In this document: one piece after another, positions 2,850 through 7,038 of the stretch | Layout: every line of letters begins with the position of its first letter | Position numbering within the stretch: position 1 is the stretch's first letter | Translations under genes and position numbers: made by a program | Notes under the pieces: model-generated | What the model was told of the DNA's origin: nothing | Seen by the model: only the letters and a program-made list of their open reading frames with translations | Databases searched by the model: none | Source: Bacteroidota bacterium | GTDB taxonomy: Bacteria > Bacteroidota > Bacteroidia > Bacteroidales > F082 | Reading direction: 5' to 3' | Assembly (NCBI GenBank): GCA_002686705.1 | Contig: NYYH01000032.1 | Coordinates: 1 to 21,558, forward strand | Length of the DNA: 21,558 nt

Positions 2850-4235
2850 TTACTTATGCACGTTTTTAATAAACTCTTCTACTTCTGGAATCCCACCCTG
2901 ATAAACAAGATAACCGTTGTATGGTTCACGATTTGTGATTTCGTCGTTTATGGGAGTAAGCATCATTCGCTTAACCTCTTCAGGATCTTCTGTTTGACCT
3001 AATATCCAACTTAACTTAACCCAGGCAACTTCGGGTAACATATTTCCCGCTGGGATAATACCCTTTGCCATCATATCACGACCCGTATCATATACAAACA
3101 TGTGAACATAGCCCCAGAGTGTTTGCAGAGTCATAAACATGTGAACTCCTTTTTCATGAGCCCTCTCAATTGCCGGATATAACTCTTTATTTACATGACC
3201 CAATCCAGTGCCAACAATAATAATCCCCTTATAGCCTTTTTCCACAAGAGCATCTATTGTGTCCGGCGACATGCCAGGATAATAATAAAGCATTGTTACT
3301 TTTTTATTGAAATAAGGTAATATCTTGACATTCTTATCAGCTCGGCGTTTATTATAATTTTTCTTTATTGGAATTATCTCTTTTCTACTAATTGTAGCTA
3401 GCGGAGTATCACCAATTGTTCGGAAAGTGGACCTGTAAGATGAGTGCATTTTTCGCACTCTAGTACCTTTGTGTAATAATCCATATTCATCAGATGTTGG
3501 CCCAAACATACAAACTTGTACTTCAGCAATGTCTGAATGTCCTGCAGCTTTCATTGCATGCATAAGGTTAAGCGCAGCATCAGAACTGGGCCGGTCTGAT
3601 GACCTTTGTGAACCAACCAAAACAACAGGTATAGGCAAATTCTGACACATAAAAGTTAAAGCGGCTCCTGTATGATGTAATGTGTCTGTTCCATGACCAA
3701 TAACTATTCCATCAATTCCTTTCTCAATTTCTTTACCAATTGCTTTAGCTAATGCGATGTATTGCTTGGGTCCCATATTCTCACTGAAAACAGCAAAAAT
3801 CTTCTCTGTTTCCAGATTACAAATATCGGCTAGCTCTGGCACAGCACCGTAGAGCTCACCTGGTGAAAATGCTGGTATAACTGCACCTGTACGATAATCA
3901 AGCCTTGACGCAATGGTGCCTCCCGTGCCAAATAGTTTAACATTTGGTAATCCGGGTGTCATAGGGAACTCCTTTTCTGGAATTTTATAATTGGCTTTTT
4001 TGTACCCGGTTTCTTTCATGCTTGTGATTGTCCCCGTGTCGATACCAATATTATAGCCAGTAACTATTTTAATGACAATATGTGTTTCATCATCATTTTC
4101 AGATCGTGGTAATACGGTTCCTTCAAAAGTGCCACGCGTAGTTTTGGCAATAACCGTTCCCCAAACACGTACTTTATATTTTTTTAATAAGTCTAGTGCC
4201 TCTCCTTTGTATCCCTGAAATATATCGTTATCCAT
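2850..4235 (-). CDS. gatD: Glu-tRNA(Gln) amidotransferase subunit D (archaeal-type GatD)
   Basis: GatD is the asparaginase-like subunit that releases ammonia for GatE, which uses it to convert Glu-tRNA(Gln) to Gln-tRNA(Gln). The 461-residue protein has an N-terminal small beta domain (about residues 1-85, with VRVWGTVIAKTTRGTFEGTVLPR) that plain L-asparaginases lack, and then the amidohydrolase domain. Catalytic residues are visible: T107 in FGTGGTIAS, T183 and D184 in GHGTDT, and K262 in RVRKMHSS. The GSQRSSDRPSSDA block is also typical. GatDE is classically the archaeal pathway, so its presence in a Bacteroidota-like genome is notable. The ATG at 4235 lies in a 38-bp segment duplicated at 5062-5099, where the original start overlapped the gatE stop. 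The gene remains full length after the insertion upstream of it. Confidence 0.93.
   Translation of the reverse strand: MDNDIFQGYKGEALDLLKKYKVRVWGTVIAKTTRGTFEGTVLPRSENDDETHIVIKIVTGYNIGIDTGTITSMKETGYKKANYKIPEKEFPMTPGLPNVKLFGTGGTIASRLDYRTGAVIPAFSPGELYGAVPELADICNLETEKIFAVFSENMGPKQYIALAKAIGKEIEKGIDGIVIGHGTDTLHHTGAALTFMCQNLPIPVVLVGSQRSSDRPSSDAALNLMHAMKAAGHSDIAEVQVCMFGPTSDEYGLLHKGTRVRKMHSSYRSTFRTIGDTPLATISRKEIIPIKKNYNKRRADKNVKILPYFNKKVTMLYYYPGMSPDTIDALVEKGYKGIIIVGTGLGHVNKELYPAIERAHEKGVHMFMTLQTLWGYVHMFVYDTGRDMMAKGIIPAGNMLPEVAWVKLSWILGQTEDPEEVKRMMLTPINDEITNREPYNGYLVYQGGIPEVEEFIKNVHK
4198..4235. repeat. 38-bp direct repeat, copy A (functional gatD 5' end)
   Basis: This segment encodes the first residues of gatD (MDNDIFQGYKGEA) on the minus strand. 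It matches 5062-5099 at 37 of 38 bases (the single difference is at 4227 versus 5091). Similarity stops abruptly on both sides. The two copies bracket the inserted DNA at 4236-5061. Confidence 0.95.
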
Positions 4236-4258
4236 TATATTGGTTTTATTATCAATTA

Positions 4259-4299
4259 TTTTGATTTAAGAACAAGGAATGTCAATTAACGAATTCAGA
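4259..4299 (+). repeat. Left-arm repeat unit 1
   Basis: It begins ttttgatttaagaacaagga and continues with an aattaacgaattcaga-like stretch. The same left-arm unit recurs in direct orientation at 4794-4833 and 4966-5008. Its gaacaaggaa (4270-4279) is the inverse of ttccttgttc at 4714-4723, so units 1 and 2 enclose the four-helix-bundle gene. Confidence 0.85.
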
Positions 4300-4319
4300 T
4301 TAAAATGGAATAAAAACTT

Positions 4320-4682
4320 TCATGCCTTCAAATTCTTTTGAGCTGTTTCAACACTTTTTACAAAAATTGATATTAATTCGTCATTCTCTTTTTTTGCAGA
4401 AATTATTTTAGTTTCAGCACTGTATAATAATGTTCTATGGATTATTTTGAGGCATATAAGTGTTTCCCTCAATTCTTTCAATACAACCTTCATTTTGTGA
4501 ATAAAGTCCTTTCTTGACTCCCCACTTTGTGCTTCACCATAATTTAATGCAACAGATGTTCCAGAGCGAACCAATTGGCCTGAAAGATGATTCCCCGCTT
4601 TTGAGTTTGGCATTTCGTTTACAATTTCTATTATTAATACAGAAAATTCAACTAATCGCTCTTCTAAATCAAATTTATTCAT
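4320..4682 (-). CDS. Four-helix-bundle protein, 23S rRNA IVS (S23) family
   Basis: The 120-residue protein matches the four-helix-bundle family first noticed as ORFs inside 23S rRNA intervening sequences, related in fold to the Avd accessory protein of diversity-generating retroelements. Typical features are the N-terminal DLEERLVEFSVLIIEIV helix, the HLSGQLVRSGTSVALNYGEAQ block, and ESRKDFIHKMKVVLKELRET leading to two further helices. It is predicted to be all alpha, with no signal peptide or membrane segment. Biochemical function is not established for stand-alone members. The start ATG at 4682 lies 5 nt from the end of a 45-bp repeat, and the stop is about 20 nt from the partner repeat, so the gene fills the interior of a repeat pair. 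It lies in the same direction as gatE and gatD, between them, and is probably a passenger of the insertion rather than part of the amidotransferase operon. Confidence 0.85.
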   Translation of the reverse strand: MNKFDLEERLVEFSVLIIEIVNEMPNSKAGNHLSGQLVRSGTSVALNYGEAQSGESRKDFIHKMKVVLKELRETLICLKIIHRTLLYSAETKIISAKKENDELISIFVKSVETAQKNLKA

Positions 4683-4687
4683 TTCGC

Positions 4688-4732
4688 TTTAAATCAAAAA
4701 TCAAAAATCGATGTTCCTTGTTCGATATTCAA
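4688..4732 (+). repeat. Right-arm repeat unit 2 (45 bp)
   Basis: It is identical to 5012-5056 at 44 of 45 positions. It contains an aaatcaaaaatcaaaaatcg stretch followed by gttccttgttcgatattcaa. The gttccttgttc core (4713-4723) is the inverse of the left-arm core. It directly precedes the start codon of the four-helix-bundle gene. Confidence 0.9.
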
Positions 4733-4793
4733 TTTTTATTAAACAACCTTTTCGATACTATTTCGTTATAATTATAAATAATTAATATTACTT

Positions 4794-4902
4794 TTTTGAT
4801 TTAAGAACAAGGAACACAAATTAACGAATTTAGTTTTTATATCTTATCTCAGCAATCGTTAATCCCTGCCTGACCGGCAGGCAGGCTTGTTCGATATTCA
4901 AA
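4794..4902. repeat. Empty inverted-repeat unit with nested GC hairpin
   Basis: The left arm (gaacaaggaac core, 4805-4815) and a right arm (cttgttcgatattcaaat, 4886 onward) enclose no gene. Part of the expected right-arm core is replaced by a GC-rich hairpin at 4865-4885 with perfect 8-bp arms (cctgcctg/caggcagg) and a 5-nt loop. In such AT-rich DNA this stands out as a separate nested repeat. No U-run follows it, so it is not a standard terminator. Confidence 0.7.
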
Positions 4903-4965
4903 TCCTACACTGCAATTATATCTTTAAACAATTTTATTCTTCTTTTAATTTTTTGTTTTCAATTA

Positions 4966-5056
4966 TTTTGATTTAAGAACAAGGAACACCGATCAACGAA
5001 CTTCGATTGCATTTAAATCAAAAATCAAAAATCGAGGTTCCTTGTTCGATATTCAA
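4966..5056. repeat. Empty inverted-repeat unit, shortest form
   Basis: The left arm 4966-5008 and right arm 5012-5056 lie almost back to back, with perfect 11-bp cores gaacaaggaac (4977-4987) and gttccttgttc (5037-5047). The right arm is nearly identical to that next to the four-helix-bundle gene. The unit resembles a non-autonomous, MITE-like derivative and ends about 5 nt before the copy-B direct repeat. Confidence 0.85.
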
Positions 5057-5099
5057 AATGCGCCTCTCCTTTGTATCCCTGAAATATATCATTATCCAT
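5025..5099 (-). pseudogene. Truncated 5' remnant of gatD
   Basis: The ATG at 5099 overlaps the gatE stop as ATGGATAA, and the frame reads MDNDIFQGYKGEA as in gatD. It then runs into the inserted repeat and stops after 24 residues (TGA at 5027-5025). It marks the original gatE-gatD junction. Ribosomes finishing gatE could still restart here and make a short peptide, but no function is suggested. Confidence 0.85.
5062..5099. repeat. 38-bp direct repeat, copy B (ancestral gatE/gatD junction)
   Basis: This is the partner of 4198-4235, with one mismatch. On the minus strand it holds the last bases of gatE, including its TAA stop, and the first 13 codons of a broken gatD. This copy shows the ancestral overlap of the two genes. 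Confidence 0.95.
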
Positions 5100-7038
5100 A
5101 ATGAATCTCTTTACTTAATTCGGTTAAATTTACATTTCCCAGAGCAATATTTCTTAATTTTCCCATAATCCAATCTTTAAGGTCTGGTTCAGATATGGCA
5201 TCCTTGCCTTCTGCAAATTTTTCATAAAGTAATGGCAATTTCGAAAGAATTGCGTCTTTAGAGTGTTTTTTAAAATTAATACTTGTAAGAATTGATTCAA
5301 AATCCATCTTTGGATGTTCAATCATATCTGGCAGCATCTTTTCTGCTAACTCATACTGAATGCCTTTTTTGTTGAGAAATCTAAAAAGTTTATATACCTG
5401 ATCATAGTCAAATTTCTCAGGCCCTTTATAATGACCTTCGGCAAACTTAACTACATGCCCGAAAAAAGTACCCACGTATGAGGGAAGTATGTCTAGTTCA
5501 TTTACAATTCTAGCAATTATCGGGAACAGGTTTTTGGAAAAAATATAAGTATATACACCTTCCGGGACTTTCCATTTCTTCAGATGTTTATAATTATCAA
5601 TCACATCTTGTGGAAGGGTCGCTCTAAGGGTTTCAATATAATCAGCTGCTAAGGGGATCGGTGCAGAATCAGTATCAGGATACATGCGGTCAGCACCAGG
5701 CAATACTCGTTCAAAAATAGTTGTGCCATCTTCAAATGATTTTCTTGTCTCTTCAGGCACACCAACCATTGCCATTTTGCATCTTTCCTCTATCGTTTCT
5801 ATTGCAGTTTGCATATCAACTTCATCTCCCCAAATAACTAACTGTGCATCACCAGTTTTTGAATTAAGTAGTTTTCTAATATTATCCCAACTACTTTTGC
5901 TTATTTTAGGTTCAAACTCTTCGGTGTGCATCATATTAGGCCTATCTAGACATGCAATAACTTTAAGTCTGTGAATAAATTCATCTGCAAACATTTGTCC
6001 GGGTTGAGTGAAATGTGATAGAACTCCTTCAAAATTAGGTAGATTAATAGCAATGATTTGTTCTTTTCCTGCTACCTCAGGTGTATTAACTAGCTCTTCA
6101 TTCAGTATTTTGTGACTCGTTTTCCAATTATCGGGATTATCTATTTTGCTTTCAAGAATTTCTCTTATCTGTAAAAGTGCCCATTGCCTGAAAACTTCAT
6201 TATGAGTAAGTTCAGGAATCCATTTTGTATGTGCAACTCCTTTTATCTCAACACGACTTCCTCCTCTGCAACTCACATTTACATCCTGACGACCGGCCCC
6301 AATTCCTGTGCGAACTTTTCCGGTACTTCTGTTAAGAAAACGGATGTAATCGCAACCTTCCTTAACTTCATCGGGATTAGCGAAATCAGGGTAAGTTACC
6401 GTTTCGATTAAAGGCATTCCAAGTCTGTCAGTCTTAAAAGTTCGTATGTGACCAATGTCGGAGATCTCACGGCAAGAGTCTTCTTCAATACTTAGTTGAA
6501 TTAGTCTGATTTTTTTATTTGGAAGCGCTATTTCACCTTCAACACCCAGAATAGCCGTCCGTTGAAATCCTGTTGGAATACTGCCGTCTAAATACTGCTT
6601 ACGCGTAATATGCACCTCTCCTACAATGTTCAATTTCGATAATAATGAAATTTCCAAAGCTTTTTCCAGAGCATCCATATTTATTGGAAACGGAGGTGTG
6701 TCATCAACCTCGTATGTACAAGCATTTTCGTTGTTAATGCGGTAGATAATCTCTTTTTTTGTTTTAAACTCCATCAATGCAGTACCGTCATATTCACCTA
6801 GTTCACTAAGGGTTGGCCTCATATGACGAATCAATTCGGCATCGTAATTATCATTTTCGTTGTATATTCCTGCAGGACAATGGCAAAACAATTTTTCATC
6901 TGTAAGTAGTTGCTGATGAACTTCTAGCCCAGACATAAAACCCAATGAGTCATAGGTTTTTTGTGTGGCTTTAGTACGATCTACATAACCAACTTTCTTC
7001 TTGGTTTTATTATAATTTGACGTTGAATCAAAAATCAT
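5092..7038 (-). CDS. gatE: Glu-tRNA(Gln) amidotransferase subunit E (archaeal-type GatE)
   Basis: GatE activates Glu-tRNA(Gln) with ATP to a gamma-phosphoryl intermediate and transamidates it with ammonia from GatD. The GatB/GatE catalytic core is visible: GLEVHQQL at residues 37-44, a KLFCHCP segment at 49-55, MRPTLSELGEYDG, the DDTPPFP motif, RKQYLDGSIPTGFQRT and the GAGRQDVNVS segment. At 648 residues it is much longer than bacterial GatB (about 475-500). The excess includes an insert (about 340-435) in the place of the AspRS-like GAD domain of GatE, then LPGADRMYPDTDSAPIPL and a helical tail that would contact tRNA. The protein pairs with GatD from the next gene, and the two originally overlapped by 8 nt. 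No gatA or gatC is present nearby. Confidence 0.94.
   Translation of the reverse strand: MIFDSTSNYNKTKKKVGYVDRTKATQKTYDSLGFMSGLEVHQQLLTDEKLFCHCPAGIYNENDNYDAELIRHMRPTLSELGEYDGTALMEFKTKKEIIYRINNENACTYEVDDTPPFPINMDALEKALEISLLSKLNIVGEVHITRKQYLDGSIPTGFQRTAILGVEGEIALPNKKIRLIQLSIEEDSCREISDIGHIRTFKTDRLGMPLIETVTYPDFANPDEVKEGCDYIRFLNRSTGKVRTGIGAGRQDVNVSCRGGSRVEIKGVAHTKWIPELTHNEVFRQWALLQIREILESKIDNPDNWKTSHKILNEELVNTPEVAGKEQIIAINLPNFEGVLSHFTQPGQMFADEFIHRLKVIACLDRPNMMHTEEFEPKISKSSWDNIRKLLNSKTGDAQLVIWGDEVDMQTAIETIEERCKMAMVGVPEETRKSFEDGTTIFERVLPGADRMYPDTDSAPIPLAADYIETLRATLPQDVIDNYKHLKKWKVPEGVYTYIFSKNLFPIIARIVNELDILPSYVGTFFGHVVKFAEGHYKGPEKFDYDQVYKLFRFLNKKGIQYELAEKMLPDMIEHPKMDFESILTSINFKKHSKDAILSKLPLLYEKFAEGKDAISEPDLKDWIMGKLRNIALGNVNLTELSKEIHYG

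Follow-up and report, generated by a model that had tools for sequence, protein, structure and literature searches.

A probable transposase-free relative of the 23S rRNA intervening sequences that lies between genes and carries an S23-family gene flanked by heptamer arrays

The intervening sequences (IVS) of 23S rRNA genes, as described for Coxiella and Leptospira, carry, in the loop of their inverted repeat, an S23p open reading frame in sense orientation; they occur sporadically and are thought to be horizontally acquired; in the Coxiella IVS, tandem heptamers (GACAGAT) in variable number precede the S23p start (PMC4990558). Reports of heptanucleotide repeats go back to 1990 (reference cited in PMC2670836), and the cyanobacterial STRR, usually built of 7-bp units, are hairpin-capable and of unknown function (PMC2670836). 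GGGNATC heptamers, known from Xanthomonas and Nostoc and examined in Xanthomonas campestris ATCC 33913 (PMC4692102), and the TAACTGA heptamers present in Beggiatoaceae, Cyanobacteria, and Bacteroidetes (PMC4679880) form, like the repeats reported here, dispersed and sometimes inverted heptamer arrays of unsettled cause.

The element analyzed here is a relative of the 23S rRNA IVS that lies between genes and has no transposase. Like the IVS, it has an S23-family open reading frame (intervening-sequence protein, IVP) in sense orientation between inverted repeats; unlike the IVS, it lies between gatE and gatD rather than in a 23S rRNA gene, its arms are heptamer arrays, and its host genomes hold several IVP copies and many gene-less arrays. 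The arms match the unexplained cyanobacterial heptanucleotide repeats (STRR) as these are described: both consist of tandem 7-nt units able to form a hairpin (here the arms and the hairpin of unit 3, below), and heptamers bracket the IVP genes of several plasmids from Nostoc, Planktothrix, Aulosira, and Dolichospermum. Whereas the account of STRR in PMC2670836 presents them without a gene of their own, a gene-bearing form is present here, and the accounts of GGGNATC and TAACTGA in PMC4692102 and PMC4679880 describe direct repeats of one unit with no link to an S23-family gene. The X. campestris protein Xcc0516, however, has the S23 fold (2gsc). Within the open-licence PMC literature, the Coxiella paper (PMC4990558) was the only one found to link an S23 or four-helix-bundle gene to heptamer repeats; the text of PMC5524665 and PMC11637426 mentions the gene in passing. 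The original prediction, made from the window's letters, had proposed an undescribed class of mobile element; an S23 gene in an inverted-repeat loop is already known from the rRNA IVS. In REP/RAYT systems (REPtrons) and MITEs, a single unit with a gene is accompanied by many palindromes of its type that have none. The present class has the same combination of a gene-bearing unit and gene-less palindromes; unlike REP/RAYT, it encloses a PF05635 gene rather than Y1_Tnp (PF01797) and has no fixed termini.

In the window, the whole 21,558-nt stretch of DNA analyzed, three arm-bounded units follow one another in the same direction on the minus strand, each of the form 5'-TTGAATATCGAACAAG ... CTTGTTCTTAAATCAAAA-3', in the minus-strand order gatE (stop 5092), the three units, and gatD (start 4235). 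Unit 1 consists of the IVP gene (4320..4682, minus strand, 120 aa), a 5' arm upstream of its start (4688..4732, minus strand; a heptamer array within a lag-7 run at 4688-4736), and a 3' arm downstream of its stop (4259..4301, minus strand), whereas unit 2 (4794..4902, minus strand) and the hairpin of unit 3 (4966..5056, minus strand) are gene-less. The left arms at 4259, 4794, and 4966 share an identical 18-mer, TTTTGATTTAAGAACAAG, and CTTGTTCGATATTCAA terminates the right arms at 4717, 4886, and 5041. Sequence and profiles (PF05635/TIGR02436) thus bear out one arm pair enclosing the gene and two empty pairs, as originally predicted, and the 45-nt right arms of units 1 and 3 (4688-4732 and 5012-5056; 98% identical) do differ at one base. 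An exception to the predicted sharing of gaacaagga/tccttgttc cores is the right (5') arm of unit 2, which lacks the full tccttgttc core; a GC-rich 21-nt palindrome (4865..4885) interrupts this arm where two heptamers meet. The 7-nt periodicity of the arms and a 38-nt duplication around the cluster, described below, are additional to what had been predicted.

Against 2,000 random window pairs (99th percentile of the inverted score 20, maximum 24), unit 3 scored 28, unit 1 scored 22, above the percentile but not the maximum, and unit 2 scored 16, inside the chance range. By RNA folding, hairpin formation is strong for unit 3 (z -6.8, 0 of 200 shuffles), moderate for unit 2 (z -4.1, 0 of 200), and weak for the whole gene unit (z -1.9, 3 of 100). 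Two Rfam matches, both under the gathering score, were taken as chance. The palindrome at 4865-4885 lies exactly between the GAACAAG and GATTAAC heptamers of unit 2, as a nested mini-insert; a pattern similar to it but more symmetric had no match among 286 fetched loci.

The enclosed open reading frame exceeded the curated cut-offs of PF05635 (50.7 bits, cut-off 33.8) and TIGR02436 (76.4 bits, cut-off 24) and was predicted to fold as a four-helix bundle (pLDDT 95.9), which together place it in the S23/23S rRNA-intervening-sequence-protein family. The nearest solved folds were BT_0352 (2rld) and Xcc0516 (2gsc), with TM 0.75-0.83 by query length; both entries list five chains (A-E), and Xanthomonas S23p is described as a homopentamer (PMC4990558). 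DGR Avd was a more distant fold match (4dwl/8ub7, TM about 0.7), and PF05635 is itself said to resemble Avd (PMC10053308); unlike a DGR, the short element leaves no room for a reverse transcriptase, and none was found among the four window ORFs that were profile-scanned. The scan of the enclosed ORF returned PF05635 as its sole profile, with no Y1/HUH domain, in line with the prediction that no transposase lies inside. PF05635 is very common (7,983 proteins at E <= 0.001 among 7,997 candidates scored in one search). Proteins 83-86% identical to the window IVP came from entries labelled Cloacimonadota, Marinimicrobia, and Ignavibacteria, a pattern that fits horizontal spread if these bins are clean, and a search of phages gave no DNA match and two protein matches.

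Both neighbors of the cluster are on its strand: gatE upstream (5092..7038, minus strand; TIGR00134 394.6 bits, cut-off 319.55) and gatD downstream (2850..4235, minus strand; TIGR02153 505.5 bits, cut-off 324). The first 38 nt of gatD (copy A, 4198..4235) recur in direct orientation beyond the third unit, where they contain the gatE stop and a truncated gatD start (copy B, 5062..5099), such that a duplication with 37/38 identical positions flanks the entire three-unit cluster. Read simply, an overlapping gatE/gatD junction would have been opened and duplicated on insertion, with both genes left whole; a tandem duplication may instead have preceded insertion. The junction is found without the element in G131, where the genes overlap by 4 nt (ATGA), and in G144, G162, and G175, with spacers of ~11 to 46 nt. 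The identical junction in G062 holds a different PF05635 gene with other heptamer arms, and the 447-nt spacer of G001 contains no ORF of at least 80 aa and shows inverted repeats by eye. A general target-site duplication was unsupported: the strongest direct repeats at other loci were mostly tandem units of the arms, L042 and L046 carry duplications that resisted interpretation, and the 38 nt of the window are unusual among loci with no consistent target duplication. The GatD/GatE pair (2850-7038) is of archaeal type in a Bacteroidota-like genome, and GatD occurred in 6 of 247 class-sample genomes at E <= 1e-60.

To describe the arms more generally, 84 IVP loci from three MAGs and a class-level sample, in which the window protein was matched in 121 of 198 genomes, were compared; these were high-ranking matches and not a random draw. 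L016, L021, L025, and L026, with no tblastn match, were left out, as were ORFs <240 nt and identical ORFs, and 83 loci were scored for arm statistics, one being without a flank. On either side of the IVP genes lay mutually complementary arrays built from a degenerate 7-nt unit, and this unit varied from element to element (examples are GAACAAG-GATTAAC-GATTTTA, AATATCC, AAAGTTC, and CACTATT). In the 120-nt flanks of the 84 loci, match excess peaked at lags 7, 14, and 21, both upstream (0.080/0.051/0.044) and downstream (0.101/0.065/0.060), against -0.008/-0.009/0.009 in 1,029 control windows from the same loci; the dominant lag was 7 in 61 of 83 loci and 8 in another 15, compared with lag 7 in 48 of 514 control pairs. 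Strong arm runs (89 of 168 arms) had a median length of 37 nt, or 5.3 units. The inverted-repeat score (median 37 vs 17 for mock genes in the same loci) was above every one of 79 mocks in 62 of the 83 loci and above the mock 95th percentile in 69, with 14 below; four-helix-bundle genes are therefore usually bracketed by such arms, as the original prediction expected, with letters that differ. Alignment scores were used because RNAduplex arm energies did not separate loci from mocks (median -55 vs -52 kcal/mol). A locus's own partner arm was the best of all 83 in 35 loci (1 expected). Between genomes, arm similarity rose with protein identity (Mantel r 0.235, with 1 of 999 permutations as high; far-flank control -0.06), so the arms tend to travel with the gene.

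The genome-wide search with the arm sequence that had been proposed proved a poor guide in genome contigs: the exact arm pattern was found in five stretches in three MAGs and in no viral contig, and the class can therefore be neither found nor defined by arm letters. A first palindrome detector was likewise too strict (9 in G113, 0 in the other two groups). A fixed-sequence transposon was rejected on the rarity of the exact pattern, and an IS or MITE with conserved terminal inverted repeats and a fixed-length target duplication was rejected because arms differ between elements and no consistent duplication was seen. Of the predicted relation between an autonomous element and MITE-like derivatives, the sharing of arms by gene-bearing and gene-less units stands, whereas the shared feature is a drifting heptamer array and not a fixed IS or MITE sequence.

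The element is probably a transposase-free mobile element of the IVS type residing outside rRNA, a hairpin with arms of about five 7-nt units that carries an S23/Avd-family gene in its loop, and we infer that the IVP protein drives its spread. The arms would serve as the recognition and copying substrate of this protein, a member of a family whose solved structures have five chains, and the protein would act both in cis, at the arms of its own element, and in trans, at gene-less arms. Its target would be the 7-nt step and the hairpin rather than the letters, so that the arms could drift freely, and slippage in 7-nt steps together with copying across the hairpin would keep the two arms alike. 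By analogy with the rRNA IVS, RNase III may cleave the hairpin in a read-through transcript, and an element inserted between operon genes would then be tolerated. A broader reading is possible, although put forward tentatively: a new mobile class in which a pentameric Avd-like protein, with one heptamer per protomer, reads and propagates arrays, and which would be the hidden cause of STRR, GGGNATC, TAACTGA, and IVS heptamers and of coding-region heptamer insertions in signal peptides and linkers. The idea of one heptamer per protomer comes from the centering of strong arm runs on 4-5 units. Tying PF05635 to heptanucleotide repeats would provide the repeats with a candidate maker and the protein with a candidate substrate, both halves being testable in culturable cyanobacteria and Bacteroidota, and would define a mobile element with neither transposase nor fixed ends.

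Alternatively, the arrays could be passive products of polymerase slippage and template switching, in which IVP genes settle or with which they move along as passengers. In many bacterial genomes the most frequent long tandem units are reported to be heptamers, and an explanation by slippage has been published (PMC4679880, PMC4692102); many arrays are also single and, by a simple ORF finder, lie inside ORFs (13 of 31 in G113 and 10 of 18 in other chunks). This account is nevertheless unlikely, since IVP genes mostly lie between two mutually matching arms and since arrays are nearly absent from IVP-free genomes. In a dialect-free count over 1,745 kb from 49 genomes, from which the G113 chunks, partly picked for arm matches, were left out and in which several chunks from contigs with a known IVP match introduce a mild bias, 3 lag-7 arrays were found in 560 kb from 17 IVP-free genomes and 78 in 1,185 kb from 32 IVP genomes (rho 0.57), or 1 and 49, respectively, at a stricter setting. 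Lag 8 behaved like lag 7 (1 vs 33 arrays); lags 5, 6, 9, 10, and 13 had no link to IVP in the same 1,745 kb, lag 12 was weakly positive (rho 0.29, p 0.05), and lag 11 was weakly negative. None of the 81 lag-7 arrays lay within 600 nt of an IVP-like ORF. Wide occurrence of arms with no link to the gene had been named as grounds for abandoning the original prediction; gene-less arrays are indeed widespread, yet almost only in IVP genomes. Their match to the dialect of IVP arms in the same genome was modest (mean percentile 0.65), with the own genome being the best match for 15 of 66 arrays (1.3 expected), or 5 of 35 without the G113 chunks, which were partly chosen for arm matches.

Mobility of the element, the other half of the preferred reading, was assessed at four loci in congeners, where the element occurred in one or two genomes each and was absent at 94 genome-sites with both flanks (13 + 37 + 37 + 7 congener genomes with no room for, or no match to, the IVP gene). 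Flank counts are BLAST rows, and junction letters were inspected at 11 loci for thyA-folA, 15 for L052, 4 for L040, and 5 for L081, the last five in four genomes. Between two genes that we take from their sequence to be thyA and folA, the element was present in G113 only among 18 genomes, and in the 13 with both flanks the gaps were too short for the gene; at several element-free junctions the stop and start overlap as ATGA, and in G262 a related element (69% DNA) lies about 100 nt past the right flank match. At the L052 junction, the element was present in G157 and G267 of 45 genomes and absent from 37 with both flanks, and several of the inspected empty junctions hold other, gene-less palindromes that differ between congeners. 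The L081 junction carries the element in G137 of 40 genomes, with 37 having both flanks and no element, and the L040 junction in G151 of 11, with 7 having both flanks and no gene; related copies in the same genus, L307 and L309 (G237 and G304), are 74% identical in DNA to L040 and lie at other sites with unlike flanks. Polymorphism of the loci, which had been predicted between strains, was thus seen between related species.

The same data bear on a fixed-cassette origin, by which the hairpins tune operons through RNase III or translation, the IVP is an RNA-binding regulator, and apparent gain is mostly differential loss. The elements do sit between genes of operons, with 63 of 77 in sense to both neighbors, 1 antisense to both, and 13 mixed (simple ORF finder; 7 of 84 loci were without a neighbor within 700 nt on one side), and excision by RNase III is known for the rRNA IVS (PMC4990558); the orientation of gene-less palindromes is unreadable because they are alike on both strands. 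However, presence in one or two genomes against absence at 94 genome-sites would need massive parallel loss, and one junction holds different palindromes in different congeners, which makes this origin distinctly improbable. Mobility of the element is well supported by these sequence comparisons.

The relation between the IVP gene and the arrays was also examined across 149 genomes, in which matches to a four-unit heptamer pattern, in both readings, were counted against PF05635 matches at E <= 0.001; the pattern counts include overlapping matches and the IVP elements' own arms, and the pattern covers only some dialects. IVP copy number and pattern matches were correlated (rho 0.645, p 7e-19, with genomes not phylogenetically independent), and median matches rose with IVP number from 1 in 27 IVP-free genomes through 4, 5, 24, and 27 to 52 in the 14 genomes with at least 10 IVPs. 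The flanks of one IVP contribute 0.76 matches on average (0 in 62 of 84 loci), and after subtraction of this amount per IVP the correlation was 0.50 and the medians 1, 3, 3, 19, 22, and 43; subtraction of 5 per IVP, far over the measured value, abolished it. The link between IVP number and arrays is an association, which does not by itself make the gene the cause. As exceptions, G126 has 7 IVPs and no pattern match, and G125 is IVP-free with 23 matches; for the latter, an incomplete genome or another maker is conceivable.

Mobilization by a transposase supplied in trans, of the Y1/RAYT (REP-type) or another IS family, with the IVP gene as cargo in the manner of a REP or MITE, appears very unlikely from the same counts. 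Y1_Tnp copy number was correlated with pattern matches before correction (rho 0.46; genome size 0.39), and the 18 IVP genomes without a Y1 match had a median of just 3.5 matches; with IVP, Y1, reverse transcriptase, and size considered together (uncorrected counts), however, partial correlations were 0.51, 0.12, 0.10, and 0.05, respectively, a test that concerns the Y1 family. Those 18 genomes also include counts of 114, 83, and 67, whereas the 10 genomes with Y1 and without IVP had at most 6 (median 2), and the arms have no fixed ends. In favor of such movement, an IS-like MITE, bounded by 10-bp direct repeats and with termini resembling CAATGCTATTAAGTTAAG, contains a gene-less arm unit in L002 (about 5760-5945, minus strand) and in L004 (about 4040-4230), so that one mobile element is carried by another. 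Retro-mobility through a DGR-like or other reverse transcriptase using the Avd-like protein, to which the fold likeness to DGR Avd (4dwl, 8ub7) would point, is hardly credible given that RVT_1 occurred in 48 of the 149 genomes with a partial correlation of 0.10 and that 82 IVP genomes without RVT_1 still had a median of 12.5 pattern matches.

Heptamer-bounded IVP genes, which we regard as probable mobile elements of the IVS type, also occur on plasmids and in other phyla. IVP matches were found in 22 plasmid records (10 of Nostoc), of which 14 were fetched together with one of two phage records, and 11 of these 15 loci were cyanobacterial. The pooled flanks had a lag-7 excess of 0.183/0.164, compared with -0.012 in the control, and stronger than in the 84 loci. 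Inverted scores were at least 50 in 8 of the 15 loci, with heptamer arms of GAAGTCG or GAGGTCG on Nostoc plasmids, AATCCCC/AATCGTA in Planktothrix, TAATTCG in Dolichospermum, and AAAATTC in Aulosira; they were weaker in Treponema (36, GAAAGTG-type) and Gloeocapsa (32) and at most 25 in Bernardetia, Pseudanabaena, Chlorohelix, Anabaena cylindrica, and the phage locus. The peak lag was 6 in Bernardetia and A. cylindrica and 11 in Nostoc L220, the one non-heptameric locus among the eight, where a perfect 40-nt inverted repeat lies on either side of the IVP gene (about 1302-1431 and 1804-1850), which may be a further type of palindrome employed by this gene family. At the cas1-cas2 junction of cyanobacterial plasmids, two Nostoc have no insert, and Nostoc TCL26-01 and Anabaena cylindrica carry the IVP gene, which is antisense between cas1 and cas2 in these two plasmids (L214, L216). 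On the L213 and L218 plasmids, the IVP gene adjoins helicase and DNA methylase genes.

Several arrays were observed in particular settings. Two in L189 (4449-4502 and 7473-7568) are in frame and resemble the signal peptide of exported proteins, and others lie in likely protein linkers (L153:8692, L158:7895, and L163:7143). In L197 (4088-10650; G168:C1), nine heptamer arrays of several dialects occur within about 6.5 kb.
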